Position numbers and translations under genes: made by a program. A stretch of DNA of 22,850 bases from a virus. Positions 4,347-21,297 of the stretch are shown here, one piece after another. The DNA is taken from positions 1 to 22,850 of the IMG/VR virus record IMGVR_UViG_3300027987_000070, one strand, 5' to 3'. The first letter of the stretch is position 1, and each line of letters begins with the position of its first letter. Under the pieces are notes generated by a model that was not told where the DNA came from, searched no databases, and worked only from the letters and a program-made list of their open reading frames with translations.

Positions 4347-4772
4347 TTAGTGGACCCAAGTTCCTTCCACCACAAGTCGACCAGCTGGTAGAGTAGCTAT
4401 GCCGTCTTCATCAAAGAAAACTTGAAGAAGATCAGCATCTGATGCTGCTCCACCAACAATGACATTGTCCTCATCAGTGGTAGATTGCAAAGTGAACGTG
4501 ACAAAATCGTCAGCTGGAAGCGCGCCTTCTTGACCAGTTTCGGTTGACCAATTTGCGATGAGAGTCGCAACTCCCTTGATCACTTTAAGGTTGAAGAAGT
4601 TTACAGCATCCGCCGCTAATCCAGTTGGATTATTGTACGTGACGCGCTTTATGCGAAGCTTCTTCCCACTTGGGACTTGGAACAGCTTGACTGTCGTATC
4701 GGCTGTCAGAGCACCATGCTCGTAAGCCATCACGAAGTCTTGCTGAAGAAATTGATTGTCTCTTCTTGTCAT
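4347..4772 (-). CDS. Small beta-rich virion-associated protein, function unknown
   Basis: 141 aa. The start overlaps the stop of the upstream SPP1 gp7-like gene by 4 nt (ATGA). An internal ATG at residue 15 begins MAYEHGALTADTTVKLF and is a possible alternative start. The rest alternates strands and turns: VPSGKKLRIKRVTYNNPTGL, FFNLKVIKGVATLIANW, DFVTFTLQSTT, and a C-terminal GRLVVEGTW. This looks like a beta sandwich of the kind seen in capsid-associated or fibre proteins. It lies between the head-morphogenesis protein and the protease, so it is probably a minor head component. I do not recognise a named family. Confidence 0.6.
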   Translation of the reverse strand: MTRRDNQFLQQDFVMAYEHGALTADTTVKLFQVPSGKKLRIKRVTYNNPTGLAADAVNFFNLKVIKGVATLIANWSTETGQEGALPADDFVTFTLQSTTDEDNVIVGGAASDADLLQVFFDEDGIATLPAGRLVVEGTWVH

Positions 4773-5626
4773 GATGCCTCTTCTAATAGGTCGCTGAGAA
4801 CTGGTTCTGCATAACAGCGACAGTTGATAGGTTCACCGGGCAATCCTTCGCTCGGTGGATCGTCGTAGGAAAAGATTTTCCCATCCAGACTTGAATGCTC
4901 GTCTCTGACCCGTTCATCACCAACAGTTCGCCAAACAAACCGCGAAACTCCAAGTGATTTTTGTCGACTTGCGTTCACTTGACCGTATAGTTTTCCAACT
5001 TGGTCACGTGCAATGAGCTTTGCACGACTCTTACTAACGTTCAACCTCTGCTCTAACTCTTTAGCAATATCTGAATTAAGTTTTCCAGATGTCAAACCTC
5101 GTGTGACGACTCCTTCTACATCAGTTAAGAGCTTACGTGGTAGGTCGCTGATGAGGCTAACGTTCTCGGATACAAATCCTTCAACTATTGCTGGAAGCCT
5201 TGGATCTGTGCTCAGAATATCTACACCGAATGCGGCCTTTGTCTGCTTTGCGAATTGCATCCTCTGCCAAGACTGGGTTCTTTCGGCAAACTTTCCAGCT
5301 AATCTCTCAATATCAGTTGGTTTGACTGCGTTCGCTAGTTGTTGCCGAGCCAATTCAATCAACGCACGAGCACGCGGACCTTCACCTGCATCTTGTCTAG
5401 AACGATCACGTTCAGCACGCTCCAAGAGCCCAGGGAGTTCGCGGTATAGAGGCTCCAAAGCCTCGCGTGTCTTGTTGATTATGGCGATCAATTCTCTTGC
5501 GTAATCTTGTGAAACCAGTCTTGGCAGAGTCTGCTTTGGTAGTTTTCTACGCCGAGGACGCTTGCCAGACAGCAATACCGAGCTGATGCTCAATACGCGC
5601 TGAGTTCTGGCAAGCGGAGTAGGCAT
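4769..5626 (-). CDS. SPP1 gp7 / Mu F-like head morphogenesis protein
   Basis: 285 aa. The N-terminal region is basic (SGKRPRRRKLPK) and is followed by long charged helices. The C-terminal third carries the Mu F/SPP1 gp7 signature: AKLIARDQVGKLYGQVNASRQ, FVWRTVGDERVRDEHSSLDG, then DDPPSEGLPGEPINCRCYAEP, with the conserved CRC at residues 269-271. Members of this family bind the portal, are packaged in low copy in the head, and help assembly or DNA ejection. The position downstream of the portal gene and upstream of the protease is normal for the family. Three bases separate it from the upstream acidic-repeat gene. Confidence 0.92.
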   Translation of the reverse strand: MPTPLARTQRVLSISSVLLSGKRPRRRKLPKQTLPRLVSQDYARELIAIINKTREALEPLYRELPGLLERAERDRSRQDAGEGPRARALIELARQQLANAVKPTDIERLAGKFAERTQSWQRMQFAKQTKAAFGVDILSTDPRLPAIVEGFVSENVSLISDLPRKLLTDVEGVVTRGLTSGKLNSDIAKELEQRLNVSKSRAKLIARDQVGKLYGQVNASRQKSLGVSRFVWRTVGDERVRDEHSSLDGKIFSYDDPPSEGLPGEPINCRCYAEPVLSDLLEEAS

Positions 5627-5960: not shown

Positions 5961-7619
5961 TTATTTCGTGGCATGTTTCGCCGCCTCAATTCTGCGCAGC
6001 TGAGCTATCGCTTTTTCCTTAGTATCGTGTGTTCCGAGTATATTTCCAGATTTTGAAAGAACTACGTACTTCCCATTTCTTTCAACCACAAAATCAATTC
6101 TAACACCATCGTCATCCGTAACTTCAATGTCAACGTATGCGTCTTCTCGATCATCATCCTCCGCAGGCTCAGAAGGAGGGGGAGGAATTTCATCTTCCGG
6201 TTTTCCGCCTTGGAGTAGTTCCAGTTTCTGCTTTTCCGCTTGCTCTTGCTCCATCAATTTCTGGAGCATCTGTTCTTCTTCGATCTTCTCGAGTTCTTCA
6301 CGTTCATCAAAATCGACGATGGTTTCCATTGAGTAAGTGTCCCCACCAAAGCGCGACTTCGCAACTTCAAGCGGAGATAAAACACCTGCATCAATATATG
6401 TCTTATCTGTATTTGCAACGACAGCTCGTGTATCCGCAACTTCCTTCTCACTGGGCTGCCAAAGAGCTTTGAATTCAATTGACCAGGACTCAGGTTCTTT
6501 CCCTTTTGTTGGTCCTGCATTCGAAATAAGGAAAAACTTGATCAGCCTTTCAAGTCTACACTTAAGATGGAGCTCCTGATAGGACGCAACACGATCATAC
6601 CAGAAACGAATATCACTCTCACCTGTCGCGTTTAATCCAGCTGGAGACTGACCCATGAGCAGAGTCACAGGCATATCCGCAGCAGCAGCAAGACGCGTTG
6701 CAAAGCGAGTAAGAAGATCAGAAAGACCAGCAACAGGAGTCTGTTTTCTTTCGTATTCTTCATCAGCATCCATCAAAACTGCGTTGATGGTGGATCTACT
6801 AAGCTCAACAGCCCGAATCCTTGTTTTAATTTGCTCGTCACCATCAGCTGCGATAAGTTCAGCAAGTCCTTTGATCTTCAACGACGCTTGCGAAAATTCG
6901 TGCAGAAGCGCAGATGTCGCTGCCCAGGCAATTCCAAAATCGCGGAGAATCTCGTATGGGCGCATCAATGCTGAGTCACCCCAGTGGTTATTCGCACTAG
7001 ACAACTGATTACGCGAAACACGAATTCCAGGGAACGAAATAAGACGTGATTCATGGATAAGAATGTGCTGAACTGGACCGATAGCTCTTCCTTGTGGAAG
7101 AATCTGATAATGACTAGGCTCGCCAAACTTCTTATCGGAAATGCTGGAATACCATTTGATTGGAGTGAGTTCACGAGGCTCAAGCGTGATAAAGTGACTA
7201 ACTTCAGGGATACGATCTTCGTTCAGAGGCTCAGATAAATTCTTATTTCCATCGTTAACAACCGGATAGAGTGCTCCACCACCGAATCCACGTTCAAATT
7301 TCGCTGCTTCTTTGAAAGCTTCGATTGCACCAGACTCCTCAAGGGTCCCCATTATCTCCTCAGACAACTCTTTGTCATCTGTCTTTATCTCAAATCCCTC
7401 ACGAAGTGCCTCATCCGGAAGCTTTTCAATGATCCTTGCTGCAATGTCGTTACCACGCCAGAGCGACTCAATATCTGCGTGCGACAGTACATCATAGTCG
7501 TGTGATACACTTGTTCGCTTGTCTCTACCAGTGATTCCAAAACCGGTGAGCGAACTAAACCATCCGTCCACACGAGTATCCGTGTGTGGTGTTTGAAGCT
7601 TCTTTTTAGAAAATGGCCA
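5961..7619 (-). CDS. Portal protein, DUF1073 type
   Basis: 552 aa from the GTG at 7619-7617. I prefer this start because it gives a WPFSKKK N-terminus, common in portals, and AAGGGG lies 9 nt upstream. A TTG at 7655 would give 564 aa but overlaps the upstream gene by 29 nt. The family is clear from RGNDIAARIIEKLPDEALREG, RGFGGGALYPVV, the WGDSALMRPYEILRDFG segment, then ADMPVTLLMGQSPAGLNATGESD and WYDRVASYQE. These are hallmarks of the DUF1073 portal family, which forms the dodecameric DNA channel at the capsid vertex. After an acidic/Pro linker (EIPPPPSEP), the last 60 residues form a separate small domain (NGKYVVLSKSGNILGTHDT). Confidence 0.93.
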   Translation of the reverse strand, partial: WPFSKKKLQTPHTDTRVDGWFSSLTGFGITGRDKRTSVSHDYDVLSHADIESLWRGNDIAARIIEKLPDEALREGFEIKTDDKELSEEIMGTLEESGAIEAFKEAAKFERGFGGGALYPVVNDGNKNLSEPLNEDRIPEVSHFITLEPRELTPIKWYSSISDKKFGEPSHYQILPQGRAIGPVQHILIHESRLISFPGIRVSRNQLSSANNHWGDSALMRPYEILRDFGIAWAATSALLHEFSQASLKIKGLAELIAADGDEQIKTRIRAVELSRSTINAVLMDADEEYERKQTPVAGLSDLLTRFATRLAAAADMPVTLLMGQSPAGLNATGESDIRFWYDRVASYQELHLKCRLERLIKFFLISNAGPTKGKEPESWSIEFKALWQPSEKEVADTRAVVANTDKTYIDAGVLSPLEVAKSRFGGDTYSMETIVDFDEREELEKIEEEQMLQKLMEQEQAEKQKLELLQGGKPEDEIPPPPSEPAEDDDREDAYVDIEVTDDDGVRIDFVVERNGKYVVLSKSGNILGTHDTKEKAIAQLRRIEAAKHATK

Positions 7620-7626
7620 CACGATT

Positions 7627-7986
7627 CTATACCCCTTCGTATCTATTGACTTCAAACTTGTCGCCAGAAACCATGTAATGTTTCTTTCCAGCTGGAGTCA
7701 TTAGATAGAACCAATATTTGTGATCAGGGAGATTGAGCGTTGCAGATGTCGCAGAAGGAATTTCCATCTGGGCGAGACCTGGATTTGTGGTTTGATCCGC
7801 ATCATGTGTAATTCCTGATCCAGAATCCAATTCCACCTTGAATCCAACGTCTGAAGACCGCTCTTTTAGGCGAAAATGAAGTGTCCATGCTCCGCCTTCA
7901 GTAAGATCTTGTCCAGTAACTCCATCAGCCTTATAGACTTGGATGTCGTACAGACCATCTTCAGTTTGTGTGATTGATAGTGACAT
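7627..7986 (-). CDS. Small beta-rich virion protein, function unknown
   Basis: 119 aa. The ATG follows the upstream TAG with no spacing (TAGATG), a sign of coupling. The protein alternates short strands and turns: SITQTEDGLYDIQVYKADG, GGAWTLHFRLKER, GLAQMEIPSATSATLNLP and HKYWFYLMTPAGKKHYMVSG. The layout (polar residue strand, Ile-Pro-Ser-Ala turn, aromatic strand, Gly-Asp-x-Phe-x-Val end) resembles small Ig-like domains of phage adhesins and baseplates. It lies directly upstream of the portal gene in a run of similar beta-rich genes. I do not recognise a named family. Confidence 0.65.
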   Translation of the reverse strand: MSLSITQTEDGLYDIQVYKADGVTGQDLTEGGAWTLHFRLKERSSDVGFKVELDSGSGITHDADQTTNPGLAQMEIPSATSATLNLPDHKYWFYLMTPAGKKHYMVSGDKFEVNRYEGV

Positions 7987-8280
7987 CTAGCAATCCTCTA
8001 TTGTGGCGAGCGGTTTGGACAAGCTGATACTTCCTTGTTCTCCCTGTTTGTTGAGATCAGCTGACTCACCAAGCATCGTAAACTTACTCGATTCCACCGG
8101 TTGATTTGCGATCACTACAACTTCAGAAGACTTTACAATGGATGCGATGAACCCAAGACACTCAAGAAATTGCGATCCAGGTGTCCATATGCTGCTGAAC
8201 GCAGTTTGAATTGGAAAAATGCCGATTCCCCCACCTTCCGGTGGAATCCAATTTCCATGAGTGATGGTTAAAGCAGGCAT
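7987..8280 (-). CDS. Small conserved-context phage protein, function unknown
   Basis: 97 aa from the ATG at 8280-8278, which overlaps the upstream TGA by one base (TGATG). A longer frame extends to 8355 but would lie inside the upstream gene. The sequence starts MPALTITHGNWIPPEGGG, then IFPIQTAFSSIWTPGS, ECLGFIASIVKSSEVVVIANQ, and ends with a polar tail (ISLSKPLATIEDC). Strand-rich composition and position suggest a minor virion component or a connector between the two flanking beta-rich proteins. There is no signal peptide or membrane segment. No family is recognised. Confidence 0.6.
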   Translation of the reverse strand: MPALTITHGNWIPPEGGGIGIFPIQTAFSSIWTPGSQFLECLGFIASIVKSSEVVVIANQPVESSKFTMLGESADLNKQGEQGSISLSKPLATIEDC

Positions 8281-8972
8281 CAGAATTGCGGGAATGAGAT
8301 CGACGTTGAGCCCAGGTGAGTTCCACCGCCTGAGCCAGAGCCTGTGATTGTGCAACGAACTGTGATAACTTCACCTGGAGTTGGGTCATACACGACAGAG
8401 CAGTCGAAGAACGTGTCGGATCCTATAGTGCGAAGTGTTCCTGCGCCAGAAAATCCTACGATAGCGCTCCCAGCGCGATCATATCCTTGAAATGCAAGCG
8501 TAGCTGCTCCGTCTAGTGTGATATTCTGACCATTTCTTTGAAGATGAACAATTGCTTTCAGTGTGCTCGGTGTTAGAGAACGAGTCCATGCCTGACGAAC
8601 TTCGAAATGATTGTCAACAAGCTTGAACCGATCAGTCCCACTTACTGCAAGAGTTGGCGAAGTTGCGTTGACCTTATACTTAGCGAGTAAGATTGAGTCT
8701 ATTGCAGGAAGATTTGTGATAGTGGACAAATCCAAAAGAAGTCGATAATATCCCGGTTGACCTGATGCATCTTCCTGTGAAAGCTGAGCAAACTTTGTTG
8801 TCCACCCACTTGTCTTGAACGTCACATCATTGAAGTCCAAATACTGAATAGGATTAGTTCCTTCAATTGCAAGTGACACTAGTGTTCCAGTTCCTGCAAT
8901 CCCAGTTCGCTGATTGCCGAGCTGGACGTAAAGCTCAAGGATTGAGTTTATGTCAATGCTGAGCGCAGACAT
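8280..8972 (-). CDS. Two-domain beta-rich virion protein, possible fibre or adhesin
   Basis: 230 aa. The ATG follows the upstream TAA directly (TAAATG). Residues about 1-115 look like a BppU-type or Ig-like N-terminal domain: LELYVQLGNQRTGIAG, then DFNDVTFKTSGW and GQPGYYRLLLDLSTITNLP, with AKYKV at the end. A linker (HFEVRQAWTRSLTPSTLKAI) leads to a second Ser/Gly/Thr-rich beta domain ending in a Gly-rich stretch (GSGSGGGTHLGSTS). Such modular beta proteins are typical of fibres, baseplate or capsid spikes. The position between terminase and portal would fit a head fibre or a virion adhesin. The function is not known. Confidence 0.6.
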   Translation of the reverse strand: MSALSIDINSILELYVQLGNQRTGIAGTGTLVSLAIEGTNPIQYLDFNDVTFKTSGWTTKFAQLSQEDASGQPGYYRLLLDLSTITNLPAIDSILLAKYKVNATSPTLAVSGTDRFKLVDNHFEVRQAWTRSLTPSTLKAIVHLQRNGQNITLDGAATLAFQGYDRAGSAIVGFSGAGTLRTIGSDTFFDCSVVYDPTPGEVITVRCTITGSGSGGGTHLGSTSISFPQF

Positions 8973-10163
8973 TTAATGCGACCTCACTATACGAGGTCTC
9001 CATGCTACGACAAGTGTCACGTACTGAACAGTCCCAGGAGTATCAGGACTTTCCCATGTTTTGAAGCCGCGATTTTTAAGCTGCGACGTTCCTGCGCGAC
9101 GAATGCGAAGCAGGAAAGGATCGCCTTGTGCATAGCCGGAATCGTTCACATACGCCTGGATCAAAGACTTGATGTCTGGGGTTGTATATACAGTGTTGAC
9201 GGTGAAGTTAGGCATCGACCAAGCAACGGAGGGGCTCCCCGTTACAAGAGGCAGATCAAGAGGCTGTTGTCCAATCAGATAATTTCCCGGACCGAGCCCT
9301 CTCGCTTCTCCGTACATCAGAGGATAACCGCCACTGAGCGCCACACTAGCGCAGACCATCTGTATGACATTCGTCAAATCCGGCGTTGTGTAATCGGTTT
9401 CCAACGAATATATGAGTTGAGTGGCATTAGGAATCGAGATTTGATTCGCACCACTAAAAGTGAACGACTCAAGAGCAGTTGGACTAGATGCCGTTCCAAT
9501 GCTGTTGAACGACCTTGAGTCGCTAGTAGCAAGGAGCGCAAATGGAAGCCCAGCACCCACCGAATATACGCGAACAACTAGATTTCCGCTTCTTGTTCCT
9601 GTTCTACGTATTCGCCAACTAACAGAACCGAGTGTACCGGCAGTCGTTGATGTCAGCGCTTGCGCCATCGCCTGCGTCCTAGCCGGACTAGCTGGTGTCG
9701 TATTTCCCCATTGACGAAGGTTGATTACATCCTCAACACCTGGTGCTAATGCCGCAGCGGTCAACAATGCTGCGCCTGTCGTACGCGCCTCTACACACAT
9801 ATGAAGCGGATAGGTGCCGTGCGAGTAAGCCAGCCATCGTGGAGTTGAGATCTTTGGCTCCACGTTCCATTTGCCGTCCTTGGCAACTATTTCAATGAAA
9901 GCATCGAGTGTTCCACTCTGTGTATCCTGGGCAGCGCCCGTGATGACCGCTGCTTGAATACGTGACTTAGGTGGAATTGACGGAGATAGATTGATGAACC
10001 TAAACGAACTACCGGGATAATTATTATCCGGCGCCTTGAGATCGAAAATTCCCCAACGAGCATTGAACGATCCCCATCCATTTAGGTGAGTGGGAAATGT
10101 TCCGACAGCTTCAAACTCAGTGTCGTCTTCCCAGGTCGTTGGTGTGGCGACGGACAACGGCAT
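8973..10163 (-). CDS. Large beta-rich virion protein with a nested jelly-roll domain, putative adhesin
   Basis: 396 aa, the largest of the beta-rich group. The ATG overlaps the upstream TAA by one base (TAATG). The outer part (residues about 1-118 and 310-396) reads as one domain: FRFINLSPSIPPKSRIQAAVI at the front and DIKSLIQAYVNDSGYAQGD with LVVAWRP at the back. That arrangement is familiar from phage structural proteins. Inserted between them is a second unit of about 180 residues with SWRIRRTGTRSGNLVVRVYS, LPFALLATSDSRSF and ATQLIYSLETDYTT, which looks like a carbohydrate-binding-type jelly roll. No enzymatic motif is visible. Receptor or glycan binding is plausible but inferred. Confidence 0.6.
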   Translation of the reverse strand: MPLSVATPTTWEDDTEFEAVGTFPTHLNGWGSFNARWGIFDLKAPDNNYPGSSFRFINLSPSIPPKSRIQAAVITGAAQDTQSGTLDAFIEIVAKDGKWNVEPKISTPRWLAYSHGTYPLHMCVEARTTGAALLTAAALAPGVEDVINLRQWGNTTPASPARTQAMAQALTSTTAGTLGSVSWRIRRTGTRSGNLVVRVYSVGAGLPFALLATSDSRSFNSIGTASSPTALESFTFSGANQISIPNATQLIYSLETDYTTPDLTNVIQMVCASVALSGGYPLMYGEARGLGPGNYLIGQQPLDLPLVTGSPSVAWSMPNFTVNTVYTTPDIKSLIQAYVNDSGYAQGDPFLLRIRRAGTSQLKNRGFKTWESPDTPGTVQYVTLVVAWRPRIVRSH

Positions 10164-10777
10164 TAGGCCCAGACGACCTCGACAAGTGTGAGGCCGGAGA
10201 TGCTCGGATGAGGTGTTTCAGTAACGGTAAACCGCGAGTCGTTCTTGATCTGCGCGTTGTGTGCCTTAGCTCTTGTGTCGATCGGATCTGTAGACGCTTT
10301 GAACAAAGCATATTCGAGCTTATCGAAACCGACAGTACGTCCCTGTGCGGTTACAAGCGTTCGGTTTGGGTCAAGCAGCTTTGCGGCCACCTCTACGCCA
10401 ACGAGACCCTCCTGCACAAAGGTCAATCCGTCGATGATGCCTGTCATTGGAACACCGCGAAGAATGATGTCTGCAGAGGGATTGATGCGTTGCCAGTTGT
10501 TATCGTCGTCCCATGGTCCACTCACATATTCCAGTTTTCCGAGCATCCAGCAGCCGACAAGTTGCGGGCCAATTAAAACCGCGAAAAACATGTTGTCAAT
10601 TGGTCCACGTGGGAGAAGTCCGCGTGACTCACAGCGAGCACCTTGTTGCGTGAACGCTAGCGATGCACCAATGCGTTGCTCCGCTTGCCGCTTACGCCCC
10701 TCGGAGTCAATTGCGAGAATATCGACTAAGCGATAATTGGTCCCACCACTGTTCACGGTGAAAGGCTCAATAATCAT
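10163..10777 (-). CDS. Virion-region protein, function unknown
   Basis: 204 aa. It is coupled to the upstream gene by a 4-nt overlap and to the next gene by TAATG. The N-terminus is MIIEPFTVNSGGTNYRLVD. The middle has GPQLVGCWMLGKLEYVSGPW and a DILRGVPMTGIID-like stretch (here ADIILRGVPMTGIIDG). The C-terminus ends TLVEVVWA. The composition is mixed alpha/beta with frequent Gly and Pro turns. No signal peptide, membrane helix or catalytic motif is evident, and I do not recognise the family. Its place in the late operon among beta-rich proteins suggests a structural role. Confidence 0.6.
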   Translation of the reverse strand: MIIEPFTVNSGGTNYRLVDILAIDSEGRKRQAEQRIGASLAFTQQGARCESRGLLPRGPIDNMFFAVLIGPQLVGCWMLGKLEYVSGPWDDDNNWQRINPSADIILRGVPMTGIIDGLTFVQEGLVGVEVAAKLLDPNRTLVTAQGRTVGFDKLEYALFKASTDPIDTRAKAHNAQIKNDSRFTVTETPHPSISGLTLVEVVWA

Positions 10778-11145
10778 GCTTCCTCCGCATACACGTTGAC
10801 CTCTAGTTCAGTCACAGTGCCGGATCCTGCGGTTGTAGTGAGCCACAAATACTCACCAGCAGAAAGGGAAGCAGAGTCGAATGTTGTCACTGTTTGACCT
10901 GTGGTGGTGTTTGTCACGACAGTACCAGCGGTAATCACAGCGGTACCAGTAACGCTGATATCTGTCCCATGTCGCATGATCACAGTGCGATTTGGTGAAG
11001 CACCTTTGATAAGGAAGACTAACTTCGTGATTACTACTGCGACATCAAACCGAATGAATATGATTTTCTCAGAAACACTGGGTTCCTCAACCGTGAAGGT
11101 TTTATGGAACTTCTGCGCACCAGCTGATACTGCTAGGTCGGCCAC
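10774..11145 (-). CDS. Small beta-sandwich virion protein
   Basis: 123 aa. The sequence shows a strand-turn pattern found in many small phage structural proteins: FHKTFTVEEPSVSEKIIFIRFD, then ITKLVFLIKGASPNRTVIMRHG, TGTAVITAGTVVTNTTTGQTV and GEYLWLTTTAGSGTVTELEVNV. The 'V-x-x-G-x-[ST]-P-x-x-x-x-x-[IL]-R-[HY]-G' segment followed by TTTGxxVTTF and AGxxLWL is one I associate with capsid- or fibre-linked beta proteins in environmental phages. It overlaps the ferritin-like gene upstream by 13 nt. Exact location in the virion is unknown. Confidence 0.65.
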   Translation of the reverse strand: MADLAVSAGAQKFHKTFTVEEPSVSEKIIFIRFDVAVVITKLVFLIKGASPNRTVIMRHGTDISVTGTAVITAGTVVTNTTTGQTVTTFDSASLSAGEYLWLTTTAGSGTVTELEVNVYAEEA

Positions 11146-11720
11146 GCCAATCCTCCAAGGATAGCGCGACCAAACTTCGCGAATACTTTTGATTCCACAA
11201 CTTCATACTCACGCAGACAAGCTTCATATTCATCATAGCTCGACGCATACATCTTCGCCATGTTCTTGCATGTTTTAACATGACGCTTTTCATCTGCCAC
11301 AATCTCTTGTAGCATCACAGCAGTAATTTCGTCGTCCGTTCCTTTCAACAGACTGATAATATGACCGTACTGCCAAACTGCTCGTGCTTCTCCAACATAA
11401 AGCAGGACATACGCTTTCATCACTGGATCGCTAACGAAATCCAAATCCTCAAGGCCGACTGCTTTCGCCAATTGAGCGAACAAATTGTATTCCGTTTTGA
11501 CAGGATACGGCGTAACACCGAGCTCATGTATTCTTTTATGAAACATCGCTACATGACGTTCTTCGTCCTGCCGATGCGACCTCACTACTGGGCGATGTTG
11601 TGTATGAATGTGCTGAAGAAGCTGATCAAAAATCCAATGACTATCTTCCGCAGAAGCAGCTGCGTTCAAGAAATGACCCTTGAGCAACCGATTAGACAGT
11701 ATTGTATTCAGATTATACAT
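11133..11720 (-). CDS. Ferritin-like diiron protein
   Basis: 195 aa, four-helix pattern. All six expected diiron ligands can be placed: Glu25 (SAEDSHW), Glu53 and His56 (DEERH), Glu111 (GEARAVW), Glu144 and His147 (DEKRH). This E...ExxH...E...ExxH arrangement defines the ferritin-like/rubrerythrin class, which includes iron-storing, peroxide-reducing and tRNA- or lipid-hydroxylating enzymes. There is no rubredoxin domain and no signal peptide. It sits in the late operon directly after a CxxH/CxxC microprotein and before small virion genes, with overlaps at both ends (8 nt and 13 nt). Its substrate is unknown; candidates are peroxide detoxification, iron loading of particles, or hydroxylation of an RNA or lipid. 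Confidence 0.8.
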   Translation of the reverse strand: MYNLNTILSNRLLKGHFLNAAASAEDSHWIFDQLLQHIHTQHRPVVRSHRQDEERHVAMFHKRIHELGVTPYPVKTEYNLFAQLAKAVGLEDLDFVSDPVMKAYVLLYVGEARAVWQYGHIISLLKGTDDEITAVMLQEIVADEKRHVKTCKNMAKMYASSYDEYEACLREYEVVESKVFAKFGRAILGGLAWPT

Positions 11721-11886
11721 TCAACAAAGCATCAATCTCAGCGTTCTGTGCCTCATTCTCCTCAAGCATGCACTTCTCGCATACGACCGTCTCAGCATCT
11801 TCGTCGTCGTCATCGTCCAGGTAATCCGGGTCGTCGATAAGTATCAGTACATCAAACACTTGTCCGTGTCGCTCACAATATCGCAT
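11713..11886 (-). CDS. 57-aa CxxH...CxxC acidic microprotein (possible zinc ribbon)
   Basis: This small gene fills the gap between the large terminase and the ferritin-like gene. Its ATG (11886-11884) overlaps the terminase TAA (TAATG), and its TAA overlaps the ferritin-like start by 8 nt, which strongly supports translation. The protein opens MRYCERHGQVFDVLILIDD, has a run of Asp/Glu in the centre (LDDDDDEDAE), and then VVCEKCMLEENEAQ. Cys4-x2-His7 and Cys36-x2-Cys39 could form a zinc- or iron-binding knuckle. The function is unknown. Tight linkage to a diiron protein allows a metal-handling or partner role, but that is inference. Confidence 0.75.
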   Translation of the reverse strand: MRYCERHGQVFDVLILIDDPDYLDDDDDEDAETVVCEKCMLEENEAQNAEIDALLNV

Positions 11887-13511
11887 TACCATTTTCCTAA
11901 CATTCGCGCACGAGCCGTATCCACTCCCTCGTTCATGTAGATCACAGCTTGCGTGAATGAGTCAACTTGATCATTCTTGGTTCCGACTGGGAACACTGCG
12001 AACTCGTCCACAAAATCCTTTGCCCAGGGAGCTCCATCAGGGATGTAGACATTGCCTGATTCTACGATCGGCTGCACAGCGGATCCACGCGATTCTTTCC
12101 CACCCTGAGGATTGACAGGTATGATCCCGCTAACCTTATTGCGAAGAGTGCTGATAATCGCAGGACCATTCGCCTTATCCTCGATGAGAGTTTTCCTGGC
12201 TTTCCACTTGTGGATCATTCCACCGACAAGTTTATTCTTATCATCGAAGATTGCGAGCGTGTCAACAGTCTTACCGAAAGTCATGTGATCAGTCTTGTTA
12301 TCGAGAACAAAGATGTTAGCACCTTTTCCTGCGATAGCTTGAATACTGACACGCGACCCTGAAAGGACGTCCTTAAATGCAGCGTCCACTGATACCAGGA
12401 GCCAGTCGAATCGATCTGGTAGAGGTTCTGCTGGGAGATCGTTACATCCCGCTGGACGCCCGATCTTATATCCAGTGGTATTCGTTTGAAAGAATCTCCA
12501 CCATTCTTTCTTAAACATTCCGCCTCCGCGAGGAGCCGGTCGTTGTTGGAGTTGTCCTGCTTCGGCATATGACCCACCCCATGAACGAAGAAGAGGCTTC
12601 AACGTTTCGTCCAGATATCTTTTTGAGAATCGCTCAGGCCAAAGCAGTTCACCTTCTTTTGTCCGCTTATCCTGAAAATTGAGGAACGTCCTAGAAGGAT
12701 TTGGATGATCTGATTCATACTCCATCGGTAGGCAGAGATGATCATATCCGAGCTCAGTTGAAATGATGAGTCCGGAAACATCGTTCTCATGAACTCGTTG
12801 CATGATGACAACAAACGACGATTTCTCAGGATCGTTGACACGAGTGGGAACTACCTCAGCAAACCATTGAAGAGTGCTATCCCGAACCTTCTTACTTTCC
12901 GCAACCTTGATATTATGCGGATCGTCAATAATGAAACGATCGCCACGTTCGCCGACGACGGCTCCACCGACGGACGTGGCGATCTTCCATCCTCTTGCAG
13001 TTGTTTCAAACTTACCTTTCGTATCTTGATCTGGGGAAATTTGAAATACGTCTCCCCATAGTTCTTGATACCGGTCGCTTGCAATCAACTGCCTACATCG
13101 ACGATTGTCCCTTAGCGTCAGGGCCTGTGAATATGAGGCACCGATATATCGGAGTGCCGGATTTCTTCTGGGACCCCATTCCCACGCTGGAAAGAAGACA
13201 TTCGTCGTTAGAGATTTCATGCATCCAGGTGGAACGTTGATTAGGAGCTTCTTTATGTGACCATCGCTCACTGCTTGAAGATGATCACATATCGCATCAA
13301 TAACGTATCCACGGACAAATGGCCGAGCAGGTTCAAGGATCGGCCACATCAACTGGATGAATTCTAGTAGCGACTCCTCACAATCCACTCGATCAAGCTC
13401 CTTCAACCCGAGCTTGGGATTAGCGATTGCGAGTGCTGCTCCTCGAGCGCGACCATCCGTAGAATCTAGGATTCCACGGTCATACATCGCACCTGAGAAA
13501 TGAATTGGCAC
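11886..13511 (-). CDS. terL: Terminase large subunit
   Basis: 541 aa from a GTG start that overlaps the small-terminase TAG (TAGTG). The ATPase half has Walker A PPGCMKS (residues 94-100), Walker B FIIDDP (193-198), and a coupling-type MQRVHENDVSG segment (237-247). The nuclease half has Asp376 (VSVDAAFKD), Glu444/Asp445 (IEDKANG) and Asp514/Asp517 (NDQVDSFTQA), giving the acidic residues of an RNase H-like headful or cos nuclease. QQRPAPRGGGMFKKEWWRFF links the two halves, as is typical. It drives genome packaging through the portal. The next gene downstream is the CxxH/CxxC microprotein. Confidence 0.96.
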   Translation of the reverse strand: MPIHFSGAMYDRGILDSTDGRARGAALAIANPKLGLKELDRVDCEESLLEFIQLMWPILEPARPFVRGYVIDAICDHLQAVSDGHIKKLLINVPPGCMKSLTTNVFFPAWEWGPRRNPALRYIGASYSQALTLRDNRRCRQLIASDRYQELWGDVFQISPDQDTKGKFETTARGWKIATSVGGAVVGERGDRFIIDDPHNIKVAESKKVRDSTLQWFAEVVPTRVNDPEKSSFVVIMQRVHENDVSGLIISTELGYDHLCLPMEYESDHPNPSRTFLNFQDKRTKEGELLWPERFSKRYLDETLKPLLRSWGGSYAEAGQLQQRPAPRGGGMFKKEWWRFFQTNTTGYKIGRPAGCNDLPAEPLPDRFDWLLVSVDAAFKDVLSGSRVSIQAIAGKGANIFVLDNKTDHMTFGKTVDTLAIFDDKNKLVGGMIHKWKARKTLIEDKANGPAIISTLRNKVSGIIPVNPQGGKESRGSAVQPIVESGNVYIPDGAPWAKDFVDEFAVFPVGTKNDQVDSFTQAVIYMNEGVDTARARMLGKW

Positions 13512-14158
13512 TATTTGGGATCTTCCTCAAAGACATCTGGGATATCGGAATTATCTTCCTCAATACCTAGAGCCTTATTTGCGTGATCAAGCTCCATCTG
13601 CTCCAACAGAGCTCGAAGCATCTTTCGAGCTTTCTTAGACAAACTTCGGATGTCCATACGCTCTCGAATGTCCACTTGCCCAGTGTGCTTGATCTCCTGT
13701 CGCTCAGTGAAGCTTCCGTCCTGTCCTCGTTTAAGGAACAGAGCAAGCAGATTGTCGCTGTACTTAATCTCAGTTCCGACAACTTGATCCTTGTTTCGTC
13801 CTCCGATAATGGGATTTCGCACGCCATGAACGGCGCGTCGCTGAGCTTCAAGGATAAAAGAATTTCGGTAGACTTCGAGTGCTTCGTTACATCGCTCCTG
13901 AAACTCCGGATGGTTGAGACGGTAGTCTTTAACAGCGACATACTTACAGCCGATAGAATGAGCAGCACGAGAATACATTCCAGTCTGTGCCAAAGTCTGT
14001 AGGAACATTTCGTGCATGTCTTCTGTGAACTCATTCCACTCCCGTCTGTTGCGATTCGCAATTCCACGCAGATCCACTTCTGGATCAACGAGCTTCTCGC
14101 CCAGGATGGCGCGAAGCTGAGCGTTGGAGAAGTCTTTGAATGCGTCGTCGTCGGACAT
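13511..14158 (-). CDS. terS: Terminase small subunit
   Basis: 215 aa. The central part reads as a helix-turn-helix DNA-recognition unit, TGMYSRAAHSIGCKYVAVKDY, followed by HPEFQERCNEALEVYRN. Then comes the conserved EAQRRAVHGVRNPIIGGRNKD stretch with YSDNLLALFLKRGQDG. The C-terminal part is helical and charged (MLRALLEQMELDH) and ends acidic. This order is typical of phage small terminases that bind the packaging site and load the large subunit. The start follows the upstream TAG with no spacing (TAGATG), and the large-subunit gene starts at its stop. The assignment is confident from both sequence and context. Confidence 0.92.
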   Translation of the reverse strand: MSDDDAFKDFSNAQLRAILGEKLVDPEVDLRGIANRNRREWNEFTEDMHEMFLQTLAQTGMYSRAAHSIGCKYVAVKDYRLNHPEFQERCNEALEVYRNSFILEAQRRAVHGVRNPIIGGRNKDQVVGTEIKYSDNLLALFLKRGQDGSFTERQEIKHTGQVDIRERMDIRSLSKKARKMLRALLEQMELDHANKALGIEEDNSDIPDVFEEDPK

Positions 14159-15498: not shown

Positions 15499-17692
15499 TC
15501 AGAAGAATCTCTACTACTCAGTAAACGAGCCAATCAAGTCCGCGTATGAGAAGCGGAAACTTGCGAAGACTGATGTTTATCAAGTTCACTTCCTCCACGT
15601 AGACTTAGATCCACGCGAAGGAGAAGATGTAGAGGCTGAGCAAAAGCGAATTCGCAAAGAGCTTGAGAATTATCACATCAAGCCATCTGCGATCGTATTC
15701 AGTGGTGGAGGATTCAATGCACTCTGGCGACTCACAACTCCTTTGCACGTTGCTAGAGGATCTGCGTCAGATCGAGAAACTAATGATCGCGCTGTCGACA
15801 TTGAGAGACGCAATTGGCAATTTGAGCTTGACTTCAACACACCCGACCACTGCCGCGACATTAGCCGTATCCTTCGACTCCCTGGAACAATCAATCGTCC
15901 AGATTCGAAAAAGATCGCTAAAGGTAGAGTTCCTGCCCTCGCAGATATTATCGAGCTCAACGACAGCGAATACCCTTATTCTGGATTTGTCGCGACACCT
16001 ATCGTCGCTGTTAACAAGTCAGCTAATTCCAAGACGACGGATGTTGAGCCTCGACGAATAGACGAAATCGACGAGCTTAGAATTCCAGAAAAGCTGAAGA
16101 TCATAATCGCCCAGGGTAAGGACCCTGATAACAACAAGTGGGACAACGATCGAAGTGGATTACTCTATTTCGTATGTTGCGAACTAGTTCGTTCAGGTGT
16201 CAAGGACGATATCATACTGGGCTTGATAACGGATCCCCGTTTTGGGATCAGCGCATCTGTCCTCGACAAAGGGAATAATGTCATGCGGTATGCGCATCGC
16301 CAAGTGGAGCGAGCGCGCGATTTCGCAGACCATCCATTGTTAGCAGAGATGAACGAAAAGTTTGCTGTCATTCTCAGCTACGGAAGCCAGTCCGTAGTGA
16401 TGGTTGAAGATGGCAAGCTGAACGTGGAAACAGGTCTTTCCGAACCGGTGTTTCAAACGTTCCGTGCATTTCGTGATCGAATCAAAAACTATCAAAAGAT
16501 TCCAGTATCAGAGAAGAAATCAATTTCAGCCTATGAATGGTGGACTAGTCATCCACGTCGTCGGGAATATCTCGATGTTACGTTTGCTCCAGGACTTGAT
16601 ACTCCGAATCGGTATAATCTATGGCGAGGGTTTTCGTGTTCTCCACTTTCAGGAAACAAGCATGAGAGTCTACTCGAGCATATGCGGAATAATATCTGCT
16701 CTGCGAACGAGGAGTATTATGACTACCTCCTTAAGTGGATGGCACGAGTTGTTCAGTACCCGAGAACATGCTCTATGGTTGCGCCTGTGCTTCTCGGAGA
16801 CCGAGGAACAGGAAAATCCGTCTTTGCCAACTATTTCGGCGCCATCTTCGAACCACACTGTCATACTGTCAGTGATACGAATGCTCTCACAGGTAAATTC
16901 AACGCTCATCTGGGACAGTGTGTATTTGTCCTGGCTGAAGAAGCTTTTGATATACGAGACAAGAGACATGAATCCGTCCTTAAGGAGCATATCACTGGTC
17001 GAACTATCTCAATTGAGCGCAAAGGTTTGGATCGTATCCAGATGCCAAACTATGCGCATCTGATTATGACATCGAACAATGAACGAGTTGTTCCTGCTGG
17101 TGATTTCGAGCGTCGTTTCTTCGTTCTTCGTGTATCCTCGAACAAGCGTCAAAATTCAGAATACTTTCGTAATATCATCGAAGATCAGAAGGATGGTGGT
17201 GTCGCAAACCTGCTTCATTACCTCCTATCGATCGATTTGAGCGATTACGACGTGACGTCAGTTCCGCAGACCGAAGAGTTGCGTGAGCAGCAAGAGCACA
17301 ATCTTCCATTGGAAGTTAGTTGGCTTTTGGAAAAGCTGGATTCAGGGCAGTGGCTTCAAGGCGTCGGCTGGGAGGGTCCCATTGTGAAGGCTGCACTTCA
17401 CGAAGATTATAAGGCGTATCACTCAAGTCTTAATGCACGCACACGAGCGCGTGGAGCACGTGCGTTTCATAAATTCATAATGCAGCAACTTCCAGGCACG
17501 GAAGACAAACAAGCGTATATCTCATCCGGAGCATCACGCGTCCGGCCTATGGTTTTCATATTTCCCTCATTGAAGAAGTGTCGCCAGATCTTCGATGAAA
17601 TGCGTGGATGGAGAACCGATTGGAAGGATGTTGAGGAAGAACCAAAAGGAACAGGTGATGTCGTTAACTTCACTAGAAACCCGTTTGAATGA
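15335..17692 (+). CDS. AEP-type primase / SF3 helicase
   Basis: 785 aa. The N-terminal 200 residues look like an archaeo-eukaryotic primase (RepB/PrimPol type): HVDLDP with Asp90 and Asp92 as likely metal ligands, then IVFSGGGFNALWRL and CRDISRILRLPGTINRP. The C-terminal half is a superfamily 3 helicase of the DUF5906/D5 kind. It has Walker A GDRGTGKS (488-495), Walker B FVLAEEAF (531-538), sensor LIMTSNNE (576-583) and an arginine pair in DFERRFF (590-596). It would unwind and prime phage DNA. The start is uncertain: the ATG at 15335 has only a weak AAGAAG before it and lies inside the RHH-like gene. The 3' end overlaps gmhA by 35 nt. Confidence 0.9.
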   Translation: MLKSNFEISLKFLQFIYPQGPWMLTAISVDKKSIDARTFQKNETAEALQWLEANNQKNLYYSVNEPIKSAYEKRKLAKTDVYQVHFLHVDLDPREGEDVEAEQKRIRKELENYHIKPSAIVFSGGGFNALWRLTTPLHVARGSASDRETNDRAVDIERRNWQFELDFNTPDHCRDISRILRLPGTINRPDSKKIAKGRVPALADIIELNDSEYPYSGFVATPIVAVNKSANSKTTDVEPRRIDEIDELRIPEKLKIIIAQGKDPDNNKWDNDRSGLLYFVCCELVRSGVKDDIILGLITDPRFGISASVLDKGNNVMRYAHRQVERARDFADHPLLAEMNEKFAVILSYGSQSVVMVEDGKLNVETGLSEPVFQTFRAFRDRIKNYQKIPVSEKKSISAYEWWTSHPRRREYLDVTFAPGLDTPNRYNLWRGFSCSPLSGNKHESLLEHMRNNICSANEEYYDYLLKWMARVVQYPRTCSMVAPVLLGDRGTGKSVFANYFGAIFEPHCHTVSDTNALTGKFNAHLGQCVFVLAEEAFDIRDKRHESVLKEHITGRTISIERKGLDRIQMPNYAHLIMTSNNERVVPAGDFERRFFVLRVSSNKRQNSEYFRNIIEDQKDGGVANLLHYLLSIDLSDYDVTSVPQTEELREQQEHNLPLEVSWLLEKLDSGQWLQGVGWEGPIVKAALHEDYKAYHSSLNARTRARGARAFHKFIMQQLPGTEDKQAYISSGASRVRPMVFIFPSLKKCRQIFDEMRGWRTDWKDVEEEPKGTGDVVNFTRNPFE

Positions 17693-18260
17693 TATTAAGC
17701 ACTCCATCGCTGCGAGCATGGAAGTGATTTCAACGATCGATGCTGTCAACGTCCATCTGATGGGGTCGTTCATGTACGAACGCATTCGTGATGGCGGGAA
17801 GCTGATGATTTGTGGTTGCGGAGGTAGTGCAGCGGACTCTCAACACTTCGCAGCGGAGCTTGTTGGTCGCTATGACGGACATAGGCAAGCGCTTCCGGCC
17901 ATTGCGCTCACAGCCGACTCAGCCATTGTGACAGCGCTCGGTAACGATTTTGGCTTCAGCGAAGTATTTGCCAGGCAAGTTCGGGCATTGGGAAATCGAA
18001 AAGACGTGCTCGTTGCAATATCAACATCAGGCGCATCGTCATCTGTATGTCAAGCTGTAGAAGCAGCTCGTGATATGGGGATGGCTGCTTATGGGCTCAC
18101 TGGTCCAAGAACATCAACTAATCACGTCGCTAATCTATGCGATAATTACATTGACATATCGTCTCACGTCACAGCTAGGATCCAAGAAGCCCATGGGCTG
18201 ATTATCCATCTGTGGTGCGAGCTCATCGACAAGTTATGGAAACTACATGGACAAGGATGA
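17658..18260 (+). CDS. gmhA: Sedoheptulose-7-phosphate isomerase (GmhA-like SIS protein)
   Basis: 200 aa from the ATG at 17658, preceded by AAGGA; an in-frame start at 17595 would lie deeper in the primase gene. It converts sedoheptulose 7-phosphate to heptose 7-phosphate, the first step to ADP-heptose in the cytoplasm. GmhA traits are CGGSAADSQHFAAELVGR, TALGNDFGFSEVFARQVRALG, ISTSGASSSV and VTARIQEAHGLIIHLWCELID. Metal ligands of the family can be placed at His63, Glu67, Gln176 and His184, with Glu67 and His179 as the likely acid/base pair. Oddly, the usual GNGGS has Cys54 in place of Asn, and STSGNS has Ala. It begins a three-enzyme heptose set with the genes at 18425 and 18908. Confidence 0.88.
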   Translation: MSLTSLETRLNDIKHSIAASMEVISTIDAVNVHLMGSFMYERIRDGGKLMICGCGGSAADSQHFAAELVGRYDGHRQALPAIALTADSAIVTALGNDFGFSEVFARQVRALGNRKDVLVAISTSGASSSVCQAVEAARDMGMAAYGLTGPRTSTNHVANLCDNYIDISSHVTARIQEAHGLIIHLWCELIDKLWKLHGQG

Positions 18261-18432
18261 CATCAATACAGTTGAACTCTACATCAGAACTGTGGATTCA
18301 AACGATCTGAAAATGTTTACGAAACGCGACCTAGCTCACAGACTGCGAACTGCCCAAGTGTGGGGATACGATGTCGAAGAAGCGCGATCGCTTATATTGG
18401 AAGCAGTTAAGGAGTGGGAGAAAGATGACTGA
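18247..18432 (+). CDS. 61-aa protein between heptose genes, function unknown
   Basis: 61 aa. It overlaps the gmhA end by 14 nt and the adenylyltransferase start by 8 nt, so it is packed like a true operon gene. A GGAA lies 7 nt before the ATG. The protein is acidic at both ends and helical: MDKDDINTVELYIRTVDS, then FTKRDLAHRLRTAQVWGYD and EEARSLILEAVKEWEKDD. It could be a small adaptor or a stray conserved phage protein. I recognise no family. Confidence 0.6.
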   Translation: MDKDDINTVELYIRTVDSNDLKMFTKRDLAHRLRTAQVWGYDVEEARSLILEAVKEWEKDD

Positions 18433-18859
18433 TCATGTTTTCGTTAATGGAGTCTTTGATATTCTTCATATTGGACATATTCGATTACTTAAGCAAGCCT
18501 CAGCGTTCGGGCTACTCACGGTTGGAATTAACTCGGATGACTCAGTCAAAAGACTGAAAGGTGAGGATCGTCCAATTAACGATCAAGAAGTTCGTCGCGA
18601 AATGCTCATGGCGCTCTGGCCAGTCAGCGAAGTGTACATCTTCGAAGAAAACAATCCCTCTGCGCTTCTCGTTGCGATGTATGCCGAGGGAATTGGTCCT
18701 TCCTATGTTTTCAAGGGAGAGCAGTATCGGGATCAGCCTTTTGCAGAGCGGAAAATCGTAGAATCGAACGGTGGACAATTTATCTACTACGACAGCGGTA
18801 GTACGATGTCCACAACGAAAATACTGGAGAACAAATGCGTGTCTGGTTTGAATCGTTGA
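18425..18859 (+). CDS. hldE: Heptose 1-phosphate adenylyltransferase (HldE C-terminal half as a separate protein)
   Basis: 144 aa from the ATG at 18425, preceded by AAGGAG in the end of the 61-aa gene. The family's role is transfer of AMP from ATP to heptose 1-phosphate. The nucleotidyltransferase signature HIGH is His15-Ile-Gly-His18 in NGVFDILHIGHIRLLKQA. HldE-type features follow: VGINSDDSVKRLKGEDRPI, FEENNPSALL, YVFKGEQY and a GSTMSTTKIL end where GYSTT is usual. The length matches the C-terminal domain of bacterial HldE, which is normally fused behind the kinase. Here it is a separate gene placed before the kinase. A related family, glycerol-3-phosphate cytidylyltransferase, is less likely because of the NSDxSVxxLKGxxRP run. 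Confidence 0.85.
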   Translation: MTDHVFVNGVFDILHIGHIRLLKQASAFGLLTVGINSDDSVKRLKGEDRPINDQEVRREMLMALWPVSEVYIFEENNPSALLVAMYAEGIGPSYVFKGEQYRDQPFAERKIVESNGGQFIYYDSGSTMSTTKILENKCVSGLNR

Positions 18860-18907
18860 AAAGCCAGAGAGTTGAGTACTCATTCAATCTGATCTCGAGG
18901 ATGAAGG

Positions 18908-19768
18908 ATGATACTAGTAGTCGGTGATTTCATGGTCGACGAATACGTCTTCGGCGTAGTCGAACGTATTAGTCCAGAAGCTCCCATCCCCGTGTGTGAA
19001 TTTCATCATCGTGAATTTCGCCCAGGAGGCGCAGGGAATGTTGCGAACAATATCCGGTCGCTGAGGAATCACTGTGTTCTAGTTGGCGTAGTCGGAAGTG
19101 AAGGTGTCCCATTTGATTTCCATGGGGAGAACTACTTATTTGCAGATCCGGATCGGCCGACCACAAGGAAGACCAGATACATGCATCTCTCGCATCACCT
19201 TCTCCGAGTTGATCACGAATCTACGTATATGATTTCAGGCGAGGTTGAGAAGAATATCAATCAGTTCATCGACCTTGCGATCAGCACTGCCAATGTTTTG
19301 GTGATTTCCGACTACGGTAAGGGCGTCGTCACTGAAAAGGTCGCTAAAAGTGCTATCAAAGAGGCTAACAAATACGGAGCGAAGGTTATAGTCGATTCCA
19401 AGCGGAAAGACATGTCATGCTTTGAAGGGGCATATCTTGCGACCCCAAATGATAATGAATTTCACGCCTGCACGACAGGATTCGATGGGATTCAGAACGT
19501 GCTCCACACCATGGGCAGTGGTGGAATGAAGCTCTATGAAATGGGGAAAGAACCAGTTCAGATTGATTCATGCGCAAAAGAAATCATAGATGTCACTGGA
19601 GCCGGTGATACTGTCGTAGCCGCGATTGCTTCGTATATCGATGATTGTCACCCGAACACCGTAGATCTCTTAGAAGCATGTCATTTTGCGAACAATGCCG
19701 CAGGAGTTGCGGTATCGAAAGTTGGAACAGCGACTGTAGTGGTCGATAGATACGGGAACCCAAAATGA
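18908..19768 (+). CDS. hldE: Heptose 7-phosphate kinase (HldE N-terminal half, PfkB family)
   Basis: 286 aa, close to the length of the HldE kinase domain. It would phosphorylate heptose 7-phosphate at C1 to the 1,7-bisphosphate. PfkB/HldE motifs: GDFMVDEYVFGVVERISPEAP at the start, RPGGAGNVANNI (38-49), SDYGKGV (134-140), TPNDNEF (179-185) and the anion hole with catalytic base TGAGD (230-234, Asp234). The start has AAGG just upstream, after a 48-nt gap from the adenylyltransferase gene. The gap holds the palindrome TGAGTACTCA (18873-18882). With GmhA and the adenylyltransferase it covers all steps to ADP-heptose except the C7 phosphatase GmhB. Confidence 0.87.
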   Translation: MILVVGDFMVDEYVFGVVERISPEAPIPVCEFHHREFRPGGAGNVANNIRSLRNHCVLVGVVGSEGVPFDFHGENYLFADPDRPTTRKTRYMHLSHHLLRVDHESTYMISGEVEKNINQFIDLAISTANVLVISDYGKGVVTEKVAKSAIKEANKYGAKVIVDSKRKDMSCFEGAYLATPNDNEFHACTTGFDGIQNVLHTMGSGGMKLYEMGKEPVQIDSCAKEIIDVTGAGDTVVAAIASYIDDCHPNTVDLLEACHFANNAAGVAVSKVGTATVVVDRYGNPK

Positions 19769-21297
19769 GCGATCCAGCAATCAAAACAGAACAGTTCAAG
19801 CATCAACGTGAGATTTATCTCAAGCATCGTGATGATCGTTTCTTCGCGTTGTTCTGGGAAATGGGTCTAGGAAAGACCAAGGTGATGCTAGATGTAGCTA
19901 GTCATCTATACTTACAAAAGAAAATAGATGCACTCCTAGTCATCGCCCCAAATTCAGTTTATAAGAACTGGCTCTCACAAGAGCTTCCAGTTCATCTTGC
20001 CGTTGAATATTCCGGCATGGCATACCCGAAAGCGAACAACGAGCGGAATAGGATCAAGAAGCTTATTTTTCTAGATCCAACTTTCAAATCTAATACGCTT
20101 CGTGTGATGTGCATTTCTTATGATTCAATTAGCACAACTCACGGTCTACAGTTCACAAAGAAGATGTTGACTGTATACCGGACGATGACAGTAGCTGATG
20201 AATCAACAGCTATCAAACGGCCATCATCGCTCAGATCTAAGCGAGCAAAGGTGGTTGGAAAAATGTCGGAATATCGCTGGATAGCGACTGGAACTCCGGC
20301 AGCAGAATCCCCGTTTGATCTTCATTCGCAAATCGACTTCCTCGACGAGGAATTCTGGGCTGGTTTCGGCATGAAAACGGTTCGCGCATTCAAAAATGAA
20401 TTTGGCGAATTCGTTCTACGTCGTCTGGCCAATGGTCGTCAATTTCCAGAGTTGAAAAGGTATCGCCGATTGGATGTGCTCCATAAGATCATTGATCCAA
20501 TCAGCTCACGACTGTTGAAGGAAGATTCTGAAGTCGAATTGCCACCGAAGACCTATGCTGTTCGTACATTTGAAATGACGAAGAAGCAGAAGGACCTTTA
20601 TGAGCAGGTGCGTGATGGATATGAGGCAGATCTTGATAATGGTTTACGAATTGAAGCTCCACTGGCTATTGTTCGTCTGGCTCGTCTTCAACAGATCACT
20701 TCTGGATTTGTTACGGCGGAAGAACGTGTTGAGGACACAGAGGAAATAACCGATAATGACCAACTGAAGATTTTCAACATAGAGCGTCAGATAGAGGACA
20801 TCGTTCCAATTGAGGAAAATCCAAAACTGAAGCTGCTAGTTGAACTCCTCGATGAATGCCATCACAAGGTGATCGTGTGGTGCAAGTTTCGTCGCGATGT
20901 CAACAACATCATGCGGATACTTGGGCATCGCGGCATCAAGTATGACGGCACGGTCAGCAGTGGTGAACGGGAACTAGCTCTAAACCGATTTCGCAATCCA
21001 GAGGATCCTGCCCAAGTGTTAGTCGTTAATATCGCGACTATCAACCAAGGTGTGACTCTTACGATCGCGAAAACAATGATATATTACTCCAATCATTTCA
21101 GCCTTGAGAAGAGGCTTCAATCTGAGGACAGGAACCATCGTATCGGGCAGGATCAACCTGTGTTGATCATAGACCTAGCTGCGGAAAACACAGTTGATGA
21201 AAAGATCATCCAACGACTACGCGAAAAGTTTGACATAGCTTCGATTGTCACCGGTGATCGCTTCAGAGAATGGATACAAATAAATGACGTTGACTAA
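19765..21297 (+). CDS. SNF2-type superfamily 2 DNA helicase/translocase
   Basis: 510 aa, coupled to the kinase gene by an ATGA overlap. Lobe 1 has Walker A EMGLGKT (32-38), motif Ia APNSVYKNW (61-69), a DEST box (Asp145-Glu146) in place of DEAH, and motif III ATGTPAAESP (174-183). Lobe 2 has VIVWCKFRRDV (369-379), VNIATINQGVTLT (421-433) and motif VI QSEDRNHRIGQ (452-462). The last two are typical of Snf2-like proteins. Such phage proteins are short relatives of chromatin remodellers and act as ATP-driven translocases on duplex DNA, probably in replication or recombination. No nuclease domain is visible. Confidence 0.9.
   Translation: MSDPAIKTEQFKHQREIYLKHRDDRFFALFWEMGLGKTKVMLDVASHLYLQKKIDALLVIAPNSVYKNWLSQELPVHLAVEYSGMAYPKANNERNRIKKLIFLDPTFKSNTLRVMCISYDSISTTHGLQFTKKMLTVYRTMTVADESTAIKRPSSLRSKRAKVVGKMSEYRWIATGTPAAESPFDLHSQIDFLDEEFWAGFGMKTVRAFKNEFGEFVLRRLANGRQFPELKRYRRLDVLHKIIDPISSRLLKEDSEVELPPKTYAVRTFEMTKKQKDLYEQVRDGYEADLDNGLRIEAPLAIVRLARLQQITSGFVTAEERVEDTEEITDNDQLKIFNIERQIEDIVPIEENPKLKLLVELLDECHHKVIVWCKFRRDVNNIMRILGHRGIKYDGTVSSGERELALNRFRNPEDPAQVLVVNIATINQGVTLTIAKTMIYYSNHFSLEKRLQSEDRNHRIGQDQPVLIIDLAAENTVDEKIIQRLREKFDIASIVTGDRFREWIQINDVD

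Follow-up and report, generated by a model that had tools for sequence, protein, structure and literature searches.

A predicted ferritin-like diiron protein encoded in the terminase-portal insert of a phage late operon

What a ferritin-like diiron protein would contribute to a phage when encoded among its packaging and capsid genes is the question raised by a 195-amino-acid (aa) open reading frame (ORF) in the virus record IMGVR_UViG_3300027987_000070, analysed here as a stretch of 22,850 bases (the window). Iron in virions and the control of iron during lysis have long been debated, as in the Ferrojan horse idea, with few genes behind the debate. An orphan diiron protein co-translated with a terminase, along with bacterioferritins (Bfr) at like positions in other phages, provides concrete genes for a direct test of whether the product is present in the particle and whether its loss alters the peroxide or iron sensitivity of infection.

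Ligands, sequence signal and predicted fold

The ORF is carried on the minus strand (11720→11133), a detail absent from the first-pass annotation, with an ATG start at 11720, while the plus-strand frame over 11133-11720 contains stops. Its G+C content and GC3 match those of the phage. The six residues put forward as diiron ligands in the first-pass annotation (E25, E53, H56, E111, E144 and H147) were all found at the named positions in the translation. ExxH pairs alone constitute weak evidence, as at least two pairs occur in 20 % of shuffled sequences. Comparison against Pfam matched the protein above the curated cut-off to COQ7 (PF03232; E = 1.6e-6; 28.3 bits, cut-off 23.5) and Ferritin (PF00210; E = 1.3e-5; 25.6 bits, cut-off 24.5), and under the cut-off to DUF455 (PF04305; E = 2e-5; 24.8 bits, cut-off 34.3). 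Using custom HMMs built from cellular proteins of one phylum sample (20 COQ7, 20 DUF455 and 16 Bfr), 0/2000 locally shuffled copies scored as high as the real protein. Five of the ligands (E53, H56, E111, E144 and H147) occupy invariant columns in a MAFFT alignment with three DUF455 and four COQ7 proteins, and the same five are invariant in a second alignment with phage Bfr and COQ7, while E25 lies opposite a gap.

The ligand spacing in the window protein is 28/58/33, compared with reference spacings of 33/43/33 for Bfr, 32-34/50/33 for DUF455 and an A-B spacing of 30 for COQ7. The B-C spacing of 58 is thus nearer that of DUF455 (50) than that of Bfr (43), while the A-B spacing is close to that of COQ7. 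Judged by its sequence, the protein fits none of the COQ7, DUF455 or Bfr subfamily signatures. Scores likewise fell below the cut-offs for the AurF family (16.3 vs 29.6), the R2-like oxidases (14.5 vs 194) and EncB (20.2 vs 90), and no PHROG family was matched (best E = 0.15).

An AlphaFold (AF2) model based on an eight-sequence alignment (pLDDT 73.7; pTM 0.73) predicts an antiparallel helical bundle, with helices at residues 11-37, 40-66, 99-125, 131-158 and 162-187. In this model E25 and E53 are situated 13.5 and 14.5 residues, respectively, from the turn between helices A and B, and E111 and E144 are 17 and 16 residues from the turn between helices C and D, the geometry being judged from residue distances to the turns and not from distances between ligands. 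Such matching heights are what a diiron bundle requires, and the model supports them, E25 having been paired with no ligand in its input alignment. Because the alignment held Bfr and COQ7 rows, the model counts as support and not as independent proof; the single-sequence AlphaFold prediction was unusable (pLDDT 38). The best PDB neighbours in Foldseek include Bfr, Dps-like proteins, human COQ7 and other ferritin-like chains (probability 1.00; TM 0.5-0.6), with E-values no better than 4e-3. Comparison of the alignment profile against PDB sequences merely echoed its Bfr rows and was discarded as evidence. Ligands that fail to meet in one four-helix bundle had been named at the outset as the observation that would contradict a diiron protein, and a bundle is predicted instead. 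Both features of the ferritin-like diiron superfamily, namely the E/ExxH/E/ExxH ligands and four antiparallel helices, were found, the latter in a model of moderate quality.

The late operon and its terminase-portal insert

All genes from the terminase small subunit (from 14158) to the neck protein (to 86) are encoded on the minus strand, in the order terminase small subunit, terminase large subunit, a 57-aa Cys/His protein, the ferritin-like protein, five more uncharacterised genes and the portal, followed by a Mu F-like protein, a scaffold region, a cement protein, the major capsid protein and the neck protein. The features of this block are as follows:

13511-14158 (-), terminase small subunit (PHROG 4044, E = 4.5e-29)
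11886-13511 (-), terminase large subunit (PHROG 38, E = 5e-82)
11713-11886 (-), zinc-knuckle-like protein by sequence, 57 aa (C4..H7, C36..C39)
11133-11720 (-), predicted ferritin-like diiron protein, 195 aa (profiles, alignments, shuffles, model)
10774-11145 (-), insert protein, 123 aa (only weak PHROG matches)
10163-10777 (-), insert protein, 204 aa (no relatives found)
8973-10163 (-), insert protein, 396 aa (no relatives found)
8280-8972 (-), insert protein, 230 aa (no family match)
7627-7986 (-), insert protein, 119 aa (overlaps the portal start)
5961-7655 (-), portal protein (Pfam Phage_portal_3, E = 2e-87; PHROG 146)
4769-5626 (-), Mu F-like head morphogenesis protein
1627-2562 (-), major capsid protein

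The start of the 57-aa ORF, which matches Pfam Zn_ribbon_8 under the cut-off (E = 0.025), overlaps the terminase stop by one base (TAATG), and the ferritin-like ORF in turn begins before the 57-aa ORF has ended, the two sharing eight bases. At its 3' end the ferritin-like ORF is overlapped by 13 bases by the 123-aa ORF, which has a GTG start and its own GGAGG ahead. These overlapping starts and stops suggest that the ferritin-like gene is translated as part of the terminase-to-neck block. The 396-aa insert protein is probably structural, judging from its position. The first-pass description of a ferritin-like diiron protein within the late operon is supported.

The terminase-portal gap in the window, with the ferritin-like gene and uncharacterised genes, spans ~4.2 kb. 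The closest terminases are those of L002 (66 %) and L003 (59 %). In these contigs 470 and 78 bases, respectively, separate the terminase match from the portal match, and the ~4 kb insert is absent; across L002, L003 and L082 this distance ranges from 78 to 482 bases. An acidic, Cys-rich 61-aa gene directly follows the terminase in L002, similar to the 57-aa gene of the window, which places the insert of the latter behind its 57-aa gene. Other cargo in the same gap includes a dCTP deaminase-like gene in MW202675 and a 192-aa uncharacterised protein in Aeromonas phage 56. Elsewhere in the window, the plus strand carries a near-complete ADP-heptose block (17595-19768), in which GmhA and the HldE adenylyltransferase and kinase domains are encoded by three separate genes, followed by a SNF2-type helicase and a radical SAM/SPASM protein (19765-22372). 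The nearest PADLOC models to this helicase are DpdE and ZorD, but it stands alone.

Ferritin-like genes in other phages

No close homologue of the 195-aa protein was found by tblastn of INPHARED phages and PLSDB, nor by pattern scans of IMG/VR and GTDB. Six-frame searches of 398 genomes in the phylum of a Boseaceae genome (G039) and 289 in that of an Opitutae MAG (G040), both performed without a positive control, likewise returned none, and 37 relative virus records gave no match to the COQ7 model. A DExRH..DExRH DNA pattern, restricted to a GAT start, yielded chance frames only in IMG/VR. Scans with the other insert proteins retrieved nothing, with no relative in any locus, while a portal scan recovered two distant loci only, and no PADLOC match pointed to a defence function. 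As short-peptide scans detect close relatives only, distant homologues may exist. The 195-aa protein is an orphan superfamily member, encoded by a single phage lineage in the insert that separates its terminase from its portal.

Parallels were sought in IMG/VR irrespective of genome location, using DNA patterns for the B helix and the Bfr A helix, and both scans returned true Bfr/ferritin proteins (PF00210) in several unrelated phages. In L254/L242 (104.9 kb), Bfr begins 15 bases 3' of the terminase and is followed by two zinc-ribbon-like genes, ThyX and a P22-like portal (L254:4161-8928). The 5.7 kb fragment L226 (693-5650) encodes a probable terminase end (a weak call; PHROG 0.049, no tblastn match), a zinc-ribbon-like gene, a ferritin lacking the haem Met, a head-tail connector, a lambda-type portal and a capsid protein. 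Bfr lies 1.5 kb upstream of the terminase and portal in L256/L238 (84.6 kb) and downstream of the capsid gene in L255/L247 (105.8 kb, with further contigs of the same lineage), while it is antisense to the late genes in L257/L251 and its placement in L249 is unclear. A late-block location in 4/6 lineages is suggestive, the count covering few lineages and limited patterns with no formal null. Bfr records labelled 'phage' from Salmonella, Acinetobacter and Y5 resemble bacterial contigs and were left out of it, and a COQ7 at the edge of the L229 locus, a probable provirus, was taken as host DNA. A separate virus-like contig (L228:126-1900) encodes an alternative oxidase (PF01786, 3e-71) adjoining an isocitrate-lyase-like gene.

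Uncultured phages supply some of the BFVD fold neighbours, proteins 290-763 aa long that bear the name prohead protease or Dps and match with weak E-values. Those named prohead protease, from uncultured tailed phages (A0A6J7WPK9, A0A6J7XDU5 and A0A6J7WIS1), have folds matching a ferritin-like bundle, and their names hint at possible ferritin fusions with procapsid proteins. An E. coli Dps query found Dps in Streptomyces and Lactobacillus phages, and also matched a short Salmonella record at 95 %. The first-pass statement that ferritin-like proteins are rare among phage morphogenesis genes thus stands only in part, as isolated phages have Dps and metagenomic phages have Bfr inside the late block. 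Published cases include Dps and Mn-catalase carried by gut phages (PMC8008677), a viral bfr gene subject to purifying selection (PMC10904782), the bacterioferritin of Flandersviridae (PMC11780533) and a virion ferritin proposed for Vi01-like phages (PMC10892097). Host bacterioferritin peptides have also been seen with AXL1 virions (PMC9206674). Co-purification would be the simplest explanation for these peptides. In Salmonella phage Vi01 (L263), no diiron motif was detected among the genes beside the tail-completion gene, a placement mapped from Sajous1 gene numbers by inference, and the only weak ferritin score there belongs to the UvsY gene; the published virion ferritin is thus unconfirmed here. 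Acidovorax phage ACP17 encodes a protein annotated as hypothetical (104850-105377; L262:4841-5374) with an E-ExxH-E-ExxH layout.

Candidate roles and comparison with known proteins

The leading reading, with a probability of about 0.42 on the combined analysis, is that of a late-made, non-haem diiron protein handling Fe2+ and peroxide. The protein would be a stand-alone, non-haem ferritin-like four-helix bundle, for which the fold and ligand order have computational support, and would bind two irons via E25, E53/H56, E111 and E144/H147. As its gene shares an operon with those of the terminase, portal and capsid, it would be made late in infection and, in the cytoplasm or inside the particle, may couple Fe2+ oxidation to the use of O2 or H2O2, and free iron and peroxide would be kept off the replicated genome and the assembling particles, as Bfr and Dps do. 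The ferritin-family proteins at late-block positions in unrelated phages were counted in its favour, while the Dps and Mn-catalase of gut phages (PMC8008677) and the selected viral bfr (PMC10904782) suggest a function worth keeping for some viruses. Against it stand the highest sequence similarity, which is to COQ7, a hydroxylase, a B-C ligand spacing further from Bfr than from DUF455, the lack of a haem Met and of the Bfr helix-A motif, the lack of a homologue for selection analysis, and a moderate model from an alignment containing Bfr and COQ7 (single-sequence pLDDT 38).

Some of these points bear on a COQ7/DUF455-like diiron oxygenase or hydroxylase, an enzyme that would act late in infection by hydroxylating a protein, an RNA, a lipid or a small molecule, and whose long stretch between helices B and C (67-98) would form the substrate side. 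COQ7 is the best profile, the B helix and following segment match it (DEERHVAMFHKRIHELGVTP vs EEADHLNWCRNRLEELDERP), and the B-C spacing is nearer DUF455; the COQ7 helix-A GE motif and helix-C +6 His (position 117 is Gln) are, however, absent, as is the DUF455 HIE(F/L)N helix, and the adjoining genes include no recognisable reductase partner or substrate pathway. Such an enzyme is the next most probable reading and a serious alternative, though less likely than not. That the protein is instead built into or packaged in the particle, carrying iron or shielding packaged DNA, is unlikely though a genuine alternative, its favourable points being the gene lying between terminase and portal, the phage Bfr genes in the same late block, the BFVD neighbours named prohead protease or Dps (names only, with weak E-values) and a best NCBIfam match to the encapsulin cargo family EncB, far under its cut-off. 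The C-terminal ILGGLAWPT also loosely resembles encapsulin cargo tails. The adjoining terminases, however, do not form part of the virion, relatives carry unrelated genes at the insertion site, such as the dCTP deaminase-like gene, and the virion ferritin published for Vi01-like phages (PMC10892097) was unmatched to a diiron motif near the Vi01 tail-completion gene.

The variety at this site could also mean that the terminase-portal gap is a tolerated insertion point and the gene an accessory passenger, whose late expression has no special meaning. The gap is short (78-482 bases) in L002, L003 and L082 and holds diverse accessory genes in others, phage Bfr is not always in the late block (antisense to it in L257), and the Streptomyces phage Dps and the ACP17 protein lie elsewhere; yet the gene is intact, has the base composition of the phage and overlaps both neighbours at its start and stop. 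A mere passenger is improbable. A broader proposal is similarly improbable. In it, a ferritin-like function tied to packaging or the late stage recurs in tailed phages, with different ferritin-like genes independently placed next to terminase, portal or capsid genes in unrelated phages, and the product would go into the procapsid or protect it, keeping iron and peroxide off the packaged DNA.

Compared with known systems, the protein combines characters of several subfamilies. With COQ7/Clk1 (PF03232), the top-scoring profile, it shares a collinear ExxH-E-ExxH order and an alike B helix followed by R..EL...P, but it has AEDSH in helix A in place of the GE motif, Q117 in place of the His six residues past the helix-C Glu, and a longer B-C segment. 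With bacterioferritin/ferritin (PF00210), likewise above the Pfam cut-off, it has five ligands in common, together with R63, L67, P71, D130 and usually Y118 of the phage Bfr, and the late-block location seen in other phages, but it has E54 in place of the haem-ligand Met, no ELxAINQY motif in a helix A that is not alignable, and an extra long C-terminal helix. It resembles DUF455 (PF04305) in the helix C/D region (EAR...DE..HV) and the C-D spacing of 33, but lacks the HIE(F/L)N helix and C-terminal part. The best BFVD fold neighbour, the rubrerythrin-type protein of ACP17, has the same E-ExxH-E-ExxH layout but 15 % identity and a position outside the late block. Finally, the Dps and Mn-catalase proteins of Gratiaviridae, Lactobacillus and Streptomyces phages are phage-encoded members of the same superfamily, but belong to another subfamily and occupy another genome position. 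Phage ferritin-like proteins are already known as a kind, and what most merits further attention is their tendency to lie in the late block.
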